Part shown: positions 6,587-11,608 of the stretch, one piece after another | How positions within the stretch are numbered: position 1 is the stretch's first letter | How the letters are laid out: the number at the start of each line of letters is the position of its first letter | The notes under the pieces: generated by a model | Database searches by the model: none | What the model was told of the DNA's origin: nothing | Seen by the model: the letters and a program-made list of their open reading frames with translations, nothing else | Translations under genes and position numbers: made by a program | From: Lewinella sp. 4G2 | GTDB taxonomy: Bacteria; Bacteroidota; Bacteroidia; Chitinophagales; Saprospiraceae | Assembly (NCBI RefSeq): GCF_001625015.1 | Contig: NZ_LVWJ02000011.1 | Span: 250,501 to 314,500 of the forward strand | Length of the DNA stretch: 64,000 nucleotides | Reading direction: 5' to 3'

Positions 6587-6671
6587 AGTAGCGTAGTCGG
6601 GTAGTATGGTAGTCGGGTAGTACCGCACTACCCGACTACTCAACTACCCGACTACCCGACTACCCAACTAA
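6587..6671. repeat. TAGTCGGG inverted array
   Basis: Units of GTAGTCGGGTAG run rightward to a centre (ACCGC near 6622) and then continue as the complementary CTACCCGACTAC, giving 13-bp perfect arms. The right end contains the TAG stop codon of the DAHP synthase gene (6668-6670). A second element of the same design is at 56201-56253. Confidence 0.8.
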
Positions 6672-7744
6672 TTCCTATTGACGATTGCATCCTGGTGGTC
6701 AATGCTCTCCTGGTGGATCGCCTTCAGGTACTTCTCCATAAACTCCGGGCTCAGTCCGTGCTTGGATCCGTCATCGGCTGCCTTTTTCAGGATGGCTTCC
6801 CAGCGGTCGCTTTGGAGGACGGCGATGTTGCGCTCGGCTTTGAACTCTCCAATGCTGTCGGCGAGTTTCATGCGGCGGCCGATCATTCCGATCAGGTCGT
6901 TATCGATCTCGTCGATTTGGCGGCGGAGTTCGATGAGGTCGGCCATTTCAACCTCGCTGGCGCTAGGCTTGCGGAGGCGGAGGTTCTGAAGCATTTCCCC
7001 AAATACCTGTGGGGTGATTTGCTGGGCGGCGTCAGACCAGGCTTCATCCGGGCGGGGGTGTACTTCGGTCATCAGCCCGTCGTAGTTGAGGTTGAGGGCT
7101 TCCTGGGCGACTTCTTGCAGCGTATCGCGGCGGCCGCAGATGTGGCTGTTGTCCACGAACATTTGCAGGTCGGGGAACTTGCGTTTCATCTCAATGGCCA
7201 TCTGCCAGCGGGGGACGTTCCGGTAGTTGGATTCCCCGTGGTAGGAGAAGCCCCGGTGGATGAGTCCGATCCGAGTGATGCCGGCTTTGTAGATGCGTTC
7301 CACCGCTCCCTGCCACAGACCGAGGTCCGGGTTGATCGGGTTTTTGATGAGTACGGGGATATTCGTTCCACTCAGTGCATCCGCTACTTCCTGGACGCTG
7401 AAGGGGTTTACGGTCGTCCGCGCACCCAGCCATAATACGTCGATCCCGGCCTTGAGGCAGTCGTAGACGTGGCTGGCTTTAGCTACCTCGGTCGTCGTCT
7501 TCATGCCGGTTTCTTCCTTGACGCGCTTCAGCCACTGCAAGCCTTCCTTGCCAACGCCTTCAAAGCTTCCGGGGCGGGTCCGGGGCTTCCAGATACCCGA
7601 GCGGAAGAGGTCCACCTGGCCAAGTTTGGCCAAATCCTTGGCGCACTGCATCACCTGGCCTTCGGTTTCGGCGCTACACGGGCCGGCAATAACTAAACCA
7701 CGGCCAGGCGTGGGGGTTACGACTTTTCCAATTTTCATTTCCAT
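6668..7744 (-). CDS. Bifunctional DAHP synthase / chorismate mutase
   Basis: The product is 358 residues. Residues 1 to about 265 form a type I-beta DAHP synthase (aroF/aroA(G)-like: GPCSAE, LFRSGIWKPRTRPGSFEG, WLGARTTVNPFSVQ, VDNSHICGRRD and TEVHPRPDEAWSD), which condenses PEP and erythrose-4-phosphate. Residues about 270-358 are an AroQ-class chorismate mutase (LIELRRQIDEIDNDLIGMI). The fusion is usual in Bacteroidota and couples entry into the shikimate pathway with the branch to prephenate. It lies 110 bp downstream of tyrA on the same strand and closes the aromatic operon. Its stop codon lies inside a repeat array. Confidence 0.95.
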   Translation of the reverse strand: MEMKIGKVVTPTPGRGLVIAGPCSAETEGQVMQCAKDLAKLGQVDLFRSGIWKPRTRPGSFEGVGKEGLQWLKRVKEETGMKTTTEVAKASHVYDCLKAGIDVLWLGARTTVNPFSVQEVADALSGTNIPVLIKNPINPDLGLWQGAVERIYKAGITRIGLIHRGFSYHGESNYRNVPRWQMAIEMKRKFPDLQMFVDNSHICGRRDTLQEVAQEALNLNYDGLMTEVHPRPDEAWSDAAQQITPQVFGEMLQNLRLRKPSASEVEMADLIELRRQIDEIDNDLIGMIGRRMKLADSIGEFKAERNIAVLQSDRWEAILKKAADDGSKHGLSPEFMEKYLKAIHQESIDHQDAIVNRN

Positions 7745-7854: not shown

Positions 7855-8697
7855 TCACTGCAATATTTTAGTTATTTCATTGGCTTTCTCAATCCGCTCG
7901 TGGAACCCATCAAAATCGCGTTTGATGAGTTGGGTCCGGAAGCGGGAGAGTTGCTCGATGTGTTCGTCCAGTACGTCGAGTACGTGGTCGCGGTTTTGGC
8001 GGAAGATGGGTACCCACATATCGGCGGAACTCTTGGCTAAACGGACGGTGGAGCCAAAGCCGGAACTCGCCAGTTCAAAGATCCGCTGCTCATCCTTTTC
8101 CTTCTCCAAGACCGTCAGGGCCAGCGCGAAACTGGCAATGTGAGAGATGTGGCTGACGTAGGCACAGTGCAGATCGTGGGCCTTACGATCGAGGTAGCTC
8201 ATGTTCATGCCGGCACTGCGAAATAGGCGGTGGGCCATATCCAGCGCGTCGTCAGCACTGTCTTCGCGGTCTACGACTACGCAGGTTTTGCCGTCGAAGA
8301 GGCCGGGCAGGGCGGCTTCCGGTCCGCTTTTTTCCGTACCCGCCATTGGGTGGCAGGCGACGTAGCGGTTGCGGTTCGGGTGGGCTGCGACTTCATTTAG
8401 CAACAGTTCTTTAGTGGAACCGACGTCCACAATGGTTTGGGAGTTGGTTACCCCATCCAGCAAGGTTGGCAGTAGGGTACGCATCACGTCGACGGGGGTG
8501 GCGAGAATGAGTACGTCCGCAACCTGTAAGGCACTGCCCAGTGACATTTCTTCCGTGATGAGGCGGCGGCGAATCGCCTTATCCACGCTTTCCGGGTTAG
8601 CGTCCACGCCGATTACGCGGGTTGCGAAACCATTCTCCTGGAGGGTGATCCCCAGCGAGCCGCCGATGAGGCCGATTCCAATGATGGCGACTACCAT
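7855..8697 (-). CDS. tyrA: Prephenate dehydrogenase
   Basis: The product is 280 residues. An N-terminal Rossmann domain carries GIGLIGGSLGI (residues 6-16), and the dehydrogenase signature HPMAGTEKSGP is in the middle (catalytic His region). It oxidatively decarboxylates prephenate to 4-hydroxyphenylpyruvate. The start ATG overlaps the stop codon of the upstream aminotransferase by one base (TAATG), which indicates translational coupling. No ACT domain is visible at the C-terminus, so feedback control by Tyr would have to act elsewhere, for example at the leader attenuator upstream of pheA (inference). Confidence 0.94.
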   Translation of the reverse strand: MVVAIIGIGLIGGSLGITLQENGFATRVIGVDANPESVDKAIRRRLITEEMSLGSALQVADVLILATPVDVMRTLLPTLLDGVTNSQTIVDVGSTKELLLNEVAAHPNRNRYVACHPMAGTEKSGPEAALPGLFDGKTCVVVDREDSADDALDMAHRLFRSAGMNMSYLDRKAHDLHCAYVSHISHIASFALALTVLEKEKDEQRIFELASSGFGSTVRLAKSSADMWVPIFRQNRDHVLDVLDEHIEQLSRFRTQLIKRDFDGFHERIEKANEITKILQ

Positions 8698-9881
8698 TAT
8701 TGCAGAGGGCTTAAACGGTGAAGGGCTTCCGTGAGGGTGGCCTCGTCGGAGCAGAGACTAATGCGTACGTAGTGCTCCCCCTGGCTGCCAAAGATGCCGC
8801 CGGGCGTAATGAATACGTCCCGGTCGTAAAGGGCGACGTCGGAAATTTCGTAGCCGGTCTTTCCGTTCGGGCAGCGGGCCCAGACGAATAGTCCCACTTG
8901 GTCATCAGCGTAAGTACAACCCAGTACATCCATTATTTGGCGGGCGATCTTCCGGCGTTTGCGGTAGTGTCCGTTCAGTGCGGCGTACCACTCCGGCCCG
9001 AGTTGCAGGGCGGCCACGGCGGCTTCCTGGAGGGGTCGGAACATCCCGCTATCCATATTACTTTTAAAGCGGAGGATGCTTGCCAGATATTGTTGGGCAC
9101 CTGCGACAGCGCCCACGCGCCAGCCGGCCATATTCTGGGCCTTGCTCAATGAATTTAATTCGAGCGCAACCTCTTTTGCTCCCGGTATAGACAAAATACT
9201 TTTTTGGTTATCGGTAAGAATAAATGCGTAAGGATTATCATTTACCAGTAATATCCGATGCTCGCGGGCGAAAGCAATTAATTCGTTAAAAAAGCCTTCC
9301 GGGGCCTGGGTGCCGGTGGGCATGTGCGGGTAATTCACCCACATTATTTTCGTTTTGGCGCTGACGCGGGTGCTCAACAAAGAAAGATCCGGCAACCACC
9401 CATTTTCGGGAGATAAATCGTACGATTGAACGACCCCGCCCGCCAGTTCCGTCGCCGACCGATAAGTGGGGTAGCCGGGGTTAGGGACCAGCACTTCGTC
9501 ACCCTCATTCAAAAAGGCCATGCTGATGTGCATGATCCCCTCCTTACTACCGATGAGGGGCAGGATCTCCGACGCCGGATCCAAACTCACCCCAAAGTAA
9601 CGGTCGTACCACCCAGCAAAGGCAGCCCGCAACTCCGGCCGGCCGACGTAAGGCTGGTAACCGTGCACGTCGGGCCGTTGGGCGGTGGACGTCAGCGCGG
9701 AAATGACCTCCGGCGGCGGCGGCATGTCCGGAGAACCGATGCCCAGATTGATGATAGGTTTCCCGGCTTCCCGCAGGCGGGCCAGCTCCTTCAGTTTCGT
9801 ACTGAAGTAATATTCTTTGGTCTCCCCCAGCCGGTCGGAAGTGGGAATGATGGTCTTCATCACGGTGTCAGTATTGGTCAT
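8697..9881 (-). CDS. Class I/II pyridoxal-phosphate aminotransferase, aromatic operon
   Basis: The product is 394 residues, counted from ATG at 9881. That start lies just after the pheA stop, while an in-frame ATG further upstream would overlap pheA by about 50 bp and adds no family sequence. Fold-type I motifs include GIGSPDMPPPPEV, GSKEGIMH, NPGYPTY, VNYPHMPTG, NDNPY and the PLP Schiff-base Lys in SLSKAQNMAGWRVG. By position it probably transaminates phenylpyruvate and hydroxyphenylpyruvate made by the flanking PheA and TyrA; specificity is inference. A second in-frame ATG at 9860 is an alternative start. Confidence 0.9.
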   Translation of the reverse strand: MTNTDTVMKTIIPTSDRLGETKEYYFSTKLKELARLREAGKPIINLGIGSPDMPPPPEVISALTSTAQRPDVHGYQPYVGRPELRAAFAGWYDRYFGVSLDPASEILPLIGSKEGIMHISMAFLNEGDEVLVPNPGYPTYRSATELAGGVVQSYDLSPENGWLPDLSLLSTRVSAKTKIMWVNYPHMPTGTQAPEGFFNELIAFAREHRILLVNDNPYAFILTDNQKSILSIPGAKEVALELNSLSKAQNMAGWRVGAVAGAQQYLASILRFKSNMDSGMFRPLQEAAVAALQLGPEWYAALNGHYRKRRKIARQIMDVLGCTYADDQVGLFVWARCPNGKTGYEISDVALYDRDVFITPGGIFGSQGEHYVRISLCSDEATLTEALHRLSPLQ

Positions 9882-9886
9882 GAGGA

Positions 9887-10744
9887 TCAGGGTTTTACAC
9901 CGGCGTTGTACACGCCCAGGACGCGCAATTCCGTACAAATAGGGGTGATGGCTTCCAGGGCCTGCTCCAGCGTGACGTGGCCCTCCAGCAAGAAATCTAC
10001 GTGGAAACGATACTGGAAGGGCCGCCCTACGATCGGTTTGCTCTGGATCTTCGTCAGGTTAATCTGGTAGGCCGCCAGGACCATGAGCACCCGGTAAAGA
10101 CTACCGGCTTCGTGGGTCGTCGAAAAACTGAGGGATACCTTATTACCGACGTCGGCCAAGTGGTCGCGGCCACGCTCCAGCACCAGGAAGCGGGTGTGGT
10201 TCAATTTATTCGTTTCGATACCGGGGGCTAGGATTTCCAAGTTGTACAGCTCCGCCGCCGCCGCGCTGGCGATGGCGCCCCGGGTGGGGTCCTGAGACTC
10301 GAGTACTTCGCGGGCGCTGAGGGCGGTGTCGGTATCCTCGACGAGTTCAATCTGCGGCCACACTTTGAAGTATTCCCGGCACTGGGCCAGCGCAACGGGG
10401 TGAGAATGCACCTGGCGCAGATCCTTTAATTGCGCTCCGGGAAGGGCCATCAGGTTGAGGCGAATACGTAGGTAAACCTCCGCTGTGATGCGCAGATTGG
10501 CGGTCTGGAGCAGATCGTAATTATCCATCAGGCTACCGGCGAGGGTATTTTCGATGGCCATCAGCCCGAGGTCGGACACGCCGGATTCCACCTGTTCCAC
10601 GACGTCGGTAAAAGTGTGGGCGGGGACGGTCACCACCTCCTTCGTGCTAAAGTGCTGGCGGGCAGCAGCCTCGTGAAAGGCACCCGCGTAGCCCTGGATG
10701 CTGACGCGTAATTGTTCGACCGAAGGGGTTACCGTGGAGTTCAT
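9887..10744 (-). CDS. pheA: Prephenate dehydratase
   Basis: The product is 285 residues and converts prephenate to phenylpyruvate. The PDT domain (about 1-185) has the periplasmic-binding-like fold with IQGYAGAFHEAAA, the conserved MAIENTLAGS and the catalytic NHTRF motif. The C-terminal ACT domain (about 195-280) contains HEAGSLYRVL and the IQSKPI variant of the ESRP motif, so allosteric Phe binding is expected. There is no chorismate mutase fused here; that activity is on the DAHP synthase at the end of the operon. It is the first structural gene behind the leader peptide and terminator. Confidence 0.95.
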   Translation of the reverse strand: MNSTVTPSVEQLRVSIQGYAGAFHEAAARQHFSTKEVVTVPAHTFTDVVEQVESGVSDLGLMAIENTLAGSLMDNYDLLQTANLRITAEVYLRIRLNLMALPGAQLKDLRQVHSHPVALAQCREYFKVWPQIELVEDTDTALSAREVLESQDPTRGAIASAAAAELYNLEILAPGIETNKLNHTRFLVLERGRDHLADVGNKVSLSFSTTHEAGSLYRVLMVLAAYQINLTKIQSKPIVGRPFQYRFHVDFLLEGHVTLEQALEAITPICTELRVLGVYNAGVKP

Positions 10745-10775: not shown

Positions 10776-10815
10776 AAAAAAAGTGGCCCCGGCTCAATGC
10801 TGGGACCACTTTTTG
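10776..10815 (-). terminator. Attenuator terminator upstream of pheA
   Basis: Read on the minus strand, the stem AAAAAGTGG-T-CCC-A-GC pairs across a short ATTGA loop with GC-C-GGG-G-CCACTTTTT and ends in a run of seven Ts. It lies between the leader peptide stop (10849) and the pheA start (10744). The 5-nt GGGAC just after the leader stop (10844-10848) is complementary to GTCCC in the 5' arm (10802-10806). It could form an antiterminator when a ribosome stalls on the aromatic codons. Confidence 0.85.
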
Positions 10816-10848
10816 AATTATCGTTCTTTACAATAAGATCAGCGTCCC

Positions 10849-10905
10849 TTACCCATTGGGGTAAAAGTAGTAGCTAAACCAGAAGTAAAAATTACGATTA
10901 TCCAT
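10849..10905 (-). CDS. Phe/Tyr leader peptide of the aromatic operon
   Basis: An 18-residue peptide, MDNRNFYFWFSYYFYPNG, ends with TAA. Nine of the ten codons at positions 6-15 are aromatic (4 Phe, 4 Tyr, 1 Trp). It ends 33 bp before an intrinsic terminator that precedes pheA. This matches known transcription-attenuation leaders of aromatic operons: low charged tRNA-Phe or tRNA-Tyr stalls the ribosome and favours antitermination. It also sits at the end of a longer open frame (from 11088), whose upstream part has no leader-like features. The peptide itself is not expected to have another role. Confidence 0.88.
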   Translation of the reverse strand: MDNRNFYFWFSYYFYPNG

Positions 10906-11086
10906 GGTTATACAACCCGGGAGTTTTGCTCCCTTGCCAGCAAACCTACGGCACGATTTACGGACCGCAAAATGTTGTTCTGGCAAGTGACGGCAATAAA
11001 TTGTGGAGCCGAACCACAGCAAGCAAGCGCAAAGCCGCGCGGATAAAGGATTTATCCTATCTTCCACCCCACTAAACATTGTTAGC

Positions 11087-11608
11087 ATGATCCCGAATAA
11101 TCCCTGGCTACTGCTCCTAGTGGGTTTGATTCCCCTGCTCGTCGGTGCCCTTTACTACAGCCCGATCGGCTTCCACAAAGCGTGGATGAAAGCCAATAAT
11201 TTCACTGAAGCTGACCTGGAGGGCGCCAACATGGTGAAAATCTTCGGATTGGCTTACCTCTACGGCGTCATCCTGGCCTCCTTCCTGCCTTCGCTCGTCA
11301 TGCACCAAACTGGGCTCTCCGGCATCTTCGGGATGTTGCCCGAGTGGGCGGATAAATCCAGCGCCCTCTGGACGGACCTTAACGCCATGGACGATAAATG
11401 GGGGATGTTCAGCCGCCACCTGCACTTTGGCCACGGCGTTATGCACGGCATCGTTTCCAGTGTATTTTTGGTAGTACCCATTGTCTCCATCAATTCCTTG
11501 TTTGAACGGCGGGGTTGGAAGTACGCTGCGATCCATATCGGTTACTGGACGATCTGTTTAGCTCTAATGGGTGGCGTCCTCTGTGAGTTCCTGGAACTTC
11601 CCCTTTAA
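11087..11608 (+). CDS. DUF1761 membrane protein
   Basis: The product is 173 residues, with the start at 11087 chosen because it begins the first hydrophobic segment. The family signature is clear in the N-terminal half (ALYYSPIGFHKAWMKAN, then ANMVKIFGLAYL). Four hydrophobic helices are predicted. Between helices 2 and 3 lies an insertion of about 40 residues rich in Trp, Asp and His (FSRHLHFGHGVMHG), which makes it longer than the usual 130-140-residue family members. Function is unknown. It is divergent from the aromatic operon leader. Confidence 0.8.
   Translation: MIPNNPWLLLLVGLIPLLVGALYYSPIGFHKAWMKANNFTEADLEGANMVKIFGLAYLYGVILASFLPSLVMHQTGLSGIFGMLPEWADKSSALWTDLNAMDDKWGMFSRHLHFGHGVMHGIVSSVFLVVPIVSINSLFERRGWKYAAIHIGYWTICLALMGGVLCEFLELPL

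Follow-up and report, generated by a model that had tools for sequence, protein, structure and literature searches.

Leader-peptide attenuation is a textbook mechanism, taught from Proteobacteria. The pheA attenuator of Escherichia coli, with its leader pheL, is represented in Rfam by the Phe_leader family, and multivalent leaders are known in which one short peptide carries the codons of several amino acids: ilvL (Ile/Val/Leu) and thrL (Thr/Ile).

A survey published in 2010 (PMC2965389) stated that, to its authors' knowledge, no such case had been shown outside Proteobacteria and Actinobacteria before their own example from Firmicutes, the atypical ermC leader aside. Several reports bear on the phylum considered here. 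A structured 5' element has been described before pheA in Flavobacterium psychrophilum and is present in other Flavobacteriaceae genera (PMC9723704); the same article notes leader-peptide attenuation before amino-acid operons. Bacteroid-trp (RF01692) appears in Table 1 of PMC2864571 as a Bacteroidetes candidate RNA, probably cis-regulatory. The Bacteroides thetaiotaomicron map contains small ORFs in long 5' UTRs, described as reminiscent of leader peptides, and its main text mentions neither prephenate nor phenylalanine. Tandem attenuators, with two short ORFs in one leader region, have been described for Salmonella mgtCBR (PMC3641672).

Here, a locus of Lewinella sp. 4G2 was analyzed together with its relatives. 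The window, that is, the whole stretch of DNA analyzed, comprised 64,000 nucleotides (contig NZ_LVWJ02000011.1, positions 250,501 to 314,500). We estimate a probability of about 0.93 that this locus carries a ribosome-mediated transcription attenuator which senses charged tRNA-Phe and tRNA-Tyr, shortage of either one sufficing, and which controls an operon encoding pheA, an aminotransferase, tyrA and a DAHP synthase/chorismate mutase. The mechanism itself is already known; the Phe/Tyr version was common in relatives and seems to be little described in the open-access literature.

Leader, terminator and operon in Lewinella sp. 4G2

Coordinates are those of the window, and features are on the minus strand unless otherwise indicated. 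The leader peptide ORF (MDNRNFYFWFSYYFYPNG, 10849-10905) comprised 18 codons, from an ATG at 10905-10903 to a TAA at 10851-10849, and nine of the ten putative regulatory codons, 6 to 15 (F Y F W F S Y Y F Y, 10861-10890), were aromatic. This can be read directly from the sequence, as it had been in a first-pass annotation of the same DNA (an 18-codon minus-strand peptide, with Phe, Tyr or Trp at nine of ten successive codons). The end of the ORF was included in a hairpin, termed 1:2 (CTTTTACCC-CAAT-GGGTAAGGG, 10846-10867), which was observed in RNA folds and whose 3' arm holds the stop codon. A GGGAC (10848-10844), directly 3' of the leader stop, begins region 2, the antiterminator strand (GGGACGCTGA, 10839-10848), which was delimited by pairing tests and folds. 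The terminator followed: its 5' arm, or region 3 (AAAAAGTGGTCCC, 10802-10814), ends in GTGGTCCC, with GTCCC at 10806-10802, and is the potential partner of region 2 or of region 4, the 3' arm (GGGGCCACTT plus T-run, 10776-10790), closed by seven T at 10782-10776. The pairing of GGGAC with GTCCC had been proposed in the first-pass annotation; both motifs were found in place, and the pairing co-varied in relatives (see below). The strong terminator also proposed there was found; its distance had to be corrected from 33 bp after the leader to 34 nt past the leader stop, the stem starting at about 10814.

The leader RNA (10943-10770) was considerably more stable than its shuffled versions (z = -4.9; none of 200 shuffles equally stable), and the minimum-energy state of the whole leader was the 1:2 hairpin plus the terminator. 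The antiterminator stretch folded alone gave z = -1.7, with 11 of 200 shuffles equally stable. Of the two alternative structures whose folding was initially proposed, the terminator formed in the best fold of the whole leader, and the antiterminator by itself was unremarkable. A simple terminator scan missed the minus-strand hairpin and reported part of it on the plus strand, probably because the scan permits loops of 3 to 8 nt only; the hairpin was plain in the fold.

Four genes were recognized downstream: pheA, a prephenate dehydratase with a C-terminal ACT-like stretch (9887-10744; Pfam PDT above the cut-off, ACT slightly below); an aminotransferase gene (8697-9938, start position provisional), whose closest models were LL-diaminopimelate and aspartate aminotransferases, below their cut-offs; and, from domain/protein searches, tyrA, encoding prephenate dehydrogenase (7855-8697), and a DAHP synthase gene fused to chorismate mutase, at the entry and branch point of the pathway (6668-7744). 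The order pheA-aminotransferase-tyrA given earlier was therefore correct, albeit incomplete, the DAHP synthase/chorismate mutase gene also belonging to the operon. A GC-rich hairpin (ACCCCGTCTC ... GAGACGGGGT, 6580-6530) was observed after the last gene, preceded by repeats of GGGTAGTC, and constitutes a plausible operon end.

Transcription units often end in strong intrinsic terminators, and an aromatic ORF could lie beside the terminator of an upstream gene by chance. The upstream gene (DUF1761 in Pfam, 11003-11608, plus strand) is divergent, so this terminator is not its own; none of 1000 dinucleotide shuffles of the 560 local bases contained an ORF with nine or more aromatic codons in ten; and leader and terminator were widely conserved upstream of pheA. 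Coincidence is scarcely credible in view of these results.

Conservation, promoter and antiterminator pairing in relatives

The leader was present in all 20 same-genus genomes with upstream sequence (own included); 21 had a pheA match, one of which, L007, ended at a contig edge. The detector used for the wider comparison (a short ORF containing six or more F/Y/W codons in ten, with a terminator no more than 110 nt further on; 500 nt scanned) accepted 19 of these 20, L011 failing on the stricter terminator demand. Leader and terminator were detected in 113 of 129 pheA loci, compared to 3 of 2365 windows elsewhere in related contigs and none of 1032 shuffles, though the proportion of 113/129 overstates the true share, because loci were ranked by PheA similarity, and still includes L127, likely false. 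Repeats and near-duplicates (L031, L032, L035, L111, L112, L114, L115) and loci with short upstream sequence (L007, L056, L078) were left out of this count. For the analyses of 126 modules described below, the seven near-duplicate loci, L127, and a spurious second ORF from each of L039 and L041 were removed.

Among named loci, positives included Saprospiraceae, Haliscomenobacteraceae, Chitinophagaceae, Bacteroidaceae, Tannerellaceae, Rikenellaceae and Marinilabiliaceae; no leader was found in three loci named Flavobacteriales (L062, L067, L090). A fairer sample than the PheA-ranked set was spread by hand over genera, among the matches listed, best scores first (60 regions, of which L156 was left out): 12 of 16 same-class genomes were positive, against 1 of 43 genomes from other classes. 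In the latter, the PheA domain sometimes lies in a longer protein, and the 1500 nt taken upstream may then hardly have room for a leader. The four same-class failures in this sample, among the matches listed, were three loci without a leader and one leader for which no terminator was found. Given this difference, the attenuator characterizes the class and not the phylum as a whole; judging from the named relatives, the class would be Bacteroidia. Phe/Tyr leaders before pheA were also observed in some other-class genomes (L118, L121, L128, L137, L160), whose PheA proteins were mostly high-scoring against the profile; transfer of operon and attenuator together is possible in these cases.

Upstream of the leader, genus comparison by eye revealed a conserved element (TTGCCAGAACAACATTTTG, 10968-10986), retained with minor changes in the same-genus loci, L021 excepted. 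It includes a TTTG at 10971-10968, presumably the -33 part of a promoter, and is followed, 19 nt past TTTG, by a -7-like box of the TAnnTTTG type (TAGGTTTG, 10941-10948). TAGGTTTG fits the TAnnTTTG promoter consensus of the phylum (PMC9723704). The TTTG, at its spacing, agrees with a -33 element, and the transcript would start just downstream of TAGGTTTG. The 19-mer TTGCCAGAACAACATTTTG was also considered as a shared operator and rejected, having a single match at up to 3 mismatches in its own genome. Of 113 loci, 83 had TAnnTTTG in the 100 nt preceding the leader ATG; the corresponding figures were 14 of 550 for control windows and 7 of 113 for shuffles. Inside the terminator-pheA gap, which is short (median 37 nt), the box was present in 1 of 113. 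The spurious second ORFs of L039 and L041 were kept in this count. The predicted promoters thus lay upstream of the leader, and not downstream of the hairpin, the position which had been regarded at the outset as incompatible with attenuation.

Control by a metabolite-binding RNA or a T-box instead of a ribosome was also considered, as these elements likewise act via terminators. Rfam gave no match at the curated gathering threshold in the whole window, Phe_leader included; a permissive scan of the leader (E up to 1) returned a Brucella sRNA and a yeast snoRNA only, both far below their thresholds, and ten relatives gave tRNAs only, in L103. Moreover, what is conserved is a run of codons within an ORF, and we consider such control extremely improbable.

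The pairing between region 2 and the terminator was analyzed by swapping arms between modules in place of column-wise covariation, MAFFT having misplaced G runs in the genus alignment. Over the 126 modules, the mean pairing energy of region 2 was -15.5 kcal/mol with the terminator arm of the same module, -10.4 kcal/mol with swapped arms (permutation z = -21.3) and -7.9 kcal/mol with a shuffled region; swapped arms attained -8 kcal/mol in 73% of pairs, because many arms share G/C runs. Watson-Crick cores of at least 6 bp were present in 82 of the 126 own pairs (mean 20.7, maximum 35 in 2000 permutations), with 60 distinct core sequences among the 82, a pattern which, in loci that are related and hence not independent, reads as compensatory change on a wide scale.

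Region 2 started at a median of 9.5 nt past the last aromatic codon, and between 5 and 15 nt in 119 of the 126 modules (298 of 1260 shuffled). The stop codon was found 6 to 36 nt past that codon (5th to 95th percentile). Pairing reached -8 kcal/mol or better in 124 modules, and in 117 of them the pairing strand was at most 12 nt from the stop. By these positions, the spacing of the strand is kept relative to the last aromatic codon, and not relative to the stop codon. A ribosome reaches up to 12 nt beyond the stop codon (PMC4833913); given this reach and the spacing of the strand, the strand would be accessible while the ribosome is positioned on the run, and covered once the ribosome is at the end of the ORF.

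Leader peptides which act themselves have been reported elsewhere (peTrpL, TnaC), and the peptide described here might similarly work in trans, as a small protein released from the ribosome, or be a TnaC-like nascent chain that stalls the ribosome in response to a free amino acid. We consider this very unlikely: residues outside the aromatic run varied freely, the peptide ends differed (YPNG, YCLRE, YGRP, YFSK and others), and it was the RNA pairing which co-varied. The comparison of upstream regions proposed in the first-pass annotation accordingly gave aromatic codons and terminator kept, and a pairing strand kept or co-varying.

Modeled ribosome positions and the proposed sensing of Phe and Tyr

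The attenuator would work as follows. When Phe or Tyr is scarce, the ribosome would slow within codons 6-15; GGGACGCTGA, just ahead, would remain free and capture GTGGTCCC while the second half of the terminator is yet to be transcribed, and with this pairing RNA polymerase would read into the operon. When Phe and Tyr are both plentiful, the ribosome would reach the stop and cover GGGAC, the terminator would form, and transcription would end some 30 nt short of pheA. In an untranslated leader, the GGG would be held by the 1:2 hairpin, favoring termination.

The effect of ribosome position was modeled by folding, at equilibrium, the RNA ahead of the ribosome at each codon, with the transcript ending at the terminator loop. 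In the window, sequestration of the terminator arm by upstream RNA was 0.53-0.69 with the ribosome on aromatic codons, so that the antiterminator is predicted to be only moderately favored, and 0.01 with the ribosome at the stop (values for a footprint edge of 12 nt; edges of 10, 12 and 14 nt agree). In the model, at least, the ribosome at the stop masks GGGAC and the stalled one exposes it, as originally suggested. Means for the 126 modules were 0.73 on aromatic codons and 0.17 at the stop; the best aromatic position exceeded the stop value by 0.3 in 110 modules, and 62 of the 126 still showed at least 0.15 at the stop codon. The value at the last aromatic codon dropped from 0.71 to an average of 0.43 when spacers were shuffled. 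The attenuator reading of the first-pass annotation thus withstood the tests made, both on codons, terminator and pairing in relatives and on modeled ribosome positions.

A hairpin at the end of the leader was present in 17 of the 19 loci folded (absent from L019 and L021), and this region was more stable than shuffles in 109 of the 126 modules. In the folds, the hairpin at 10867-10846, which the first-pass annotation had not mentioned, is predicted to compete with the antiterminator for GGG. The untranslated leader gave 0.53 in the window (mean of 0.61 over modules), a value at which the model does not clearly show the 1:2 hairpin to impose termination; in view of this and of the z of -1.7 for the antiterminator alone, a protector role of the 1:2 hairpin (termination without translation) is put forward tentatively.

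Phe and Tyr codons were both present in the run of all 126 modules, and both occurred within the last four codons of the run in 116. In 109 of 126, a modeled stall exceeded the stop value by 0.3 both when placed at the last F and when placed at the last Y. Phe accounted for 22% of leader residues, Tyr for 16% and Trp for about 1% (only L031, L035, L111, L112 and L115 left out), and when ten positions were counted backwards from where the run ends, Tyr was seen at every one of them. A mixed Phe/Tyr sensor over both branches was initially considered less usual; the mixture of codons is the norm here. The higher share of Phe codons, and the mere two Tyr codons of some leaders (L052, L132), would agree with an attenuator for Phe only (or for Tyr only), with the other aromatic codons as neutral passengers; yet Tyr accompanied Phe in every run, mostly with both in the last four codons, and Tyr occurred at all ten positions, whereas Trp, an equally aromatic bystander, was rare, and this explanation is unlikely. 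The Phe/Tyr mixture suits an operon which covers both branches and the entry enzyme.

The idea that Tyr codons are owed solely to a downstream tyrA was weakened by two loci, L084 and L085, whose leaders had F and Y, with pheA and DAHP synthase present and no recognized tyrA nearby (locus surroundings only). The tyrA search with the window protein overlooked a divergent family; Pfam PDH_N was then found in L057, L110 and L042 (all three tested). In L042, aroB, aroD and aroC were confirmed to be downstream of the leader and pheA as well, and by eye L040, L046 and L052 resembled it, DAHP synthase and shikimate genes coming after pheA; in these four loci, a single Phe/Tyr leader may therefore control a large part of the shikimate pathway.

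Tandem modules, other leaders and comparison with known systems

Two serial modules, each with F and Y, preceded pheA in 12 of the 117 loci having a leader-terminator pair (L022, L023, L027, L033, L034, L036, L084, L086, L093, L100, L113 and L119), Chitinophaga and Phaeodactylibacter being among the relatives concerned; the window has a single module. Both own pairings were stronger than both cross pairings in 7 of the 12, and at least one cross pairing was stronger than an own pairing in L022, L023, L036, L084 and L093. The second leader of L113 overlaps the first module by its assigned start. On a PheA tree built by a quick method, the tandem label was scattered, with no single origin and 10 changes at fewest, 5 of them forced by well-supported branches. 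The label was hardly clustered, as shuffled labels gave a mean of 11.6 changes and were equally low in 26 of 500 shuffles; L011, L082, L088, L099 and L129 (leader present, terminator undetected) were set to single by hand, and L127 to none. The chances are about even that the dual Phe/Tyr attenuator is an old and widespread regulator of the aromatic pathway in the class of the window, presumably Bacteroidia, extended in some lineages over aroB, aroD and aroC, with a second serial module gained or lost several times, read-through then needing two successive stalls. If true, serial two-stall control would increase the dynamic range multiplicatively, or give Phe and Tyr weights of their own.

Leaders matched to other products were also found in the genus. 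A His-run ORF preceded hisG in 8 of 9 same-genus loci, the flank of the ninth, L207, being cut and not read; that of the window genome (L206) was MIYAIHHHRAINPCHTGE. A Trp-run ORF preceded trpE in L211-L213, L215, L216, L218 and L219, with three adjacent Trp codons in L212, L213, L215, L216 and L218 and two in L211 (the window genome) and L219; L214 and L217 were left out, their flanks being cut. Terminators after the His and Trp leaders were seen by eye. Product-matched leader peptides appear from these sequences to be a general habit of the genus, which makes the attenuator reading at pheA stronger, and also more ordinary. The His leader followed a same-strand tRNA gene, identified as tRNA-Phe in L206 (ARAGORN) and seen by eye in L205, L208 and L210; in the last three the leader ATG directly adjoined the tRNA end, suggesting a putative common transcript for tRNA and his leader.

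At the Lewinella locus, aromatic amino acids are very probably made only when short, by means of a leader peptide and a terminator. A single regulator of this kind would explain the control of Phe and Tyr synthesis in a large group which includes gut Bacteroides, Parabacteroides and Alistipes, and offers a compact spacing rule leading from codon run to fold. Single and tandem versions occur naturally and could serve to test theories of sensitivity, for example the one by Elf and Ehrenberg (PMC1183508).

Compared to known systems, the pheA element of F. psychrophilum concerns the same gene in the same phylum and is possibly the same kind of element; in the passages of PMC9723704 which deal with it, no leader sequence, codon analysis or antiterminator is given. 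The attenuator described here may be a candidate identity for that unexplained Flavobacteriaceae element, in a comparison in which no pheA locus was named Flavobacterium. Bacteroid-trp (RF01692) is, from its published description, a different motif, named for trp, and had no match in the window or in the four trpE/hisG loci tested. The tandem attenuators of mgtCBR, as reported, serve another operon and another task, whereas like Phe/Tyr modules stand in series in the 12 relatives, the window excluded. From its description, the E. coli pheA attenuator shares with this locus a Phe-rich leader, a terminator/antiterminator switch and pheA downstream; here, in contrast, Phe and Tyr codons are mixed, the operon spans both branches and DAHP synthase, and the Rfam family is not matched. 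The multivalent leaders ilvL and thrL, likened by description only, involve other amino acids and other operons, and share with the Phe/Tyr attenuator, as proposed here, the principle of a single leader responding to more than one end product of a branched pathway.
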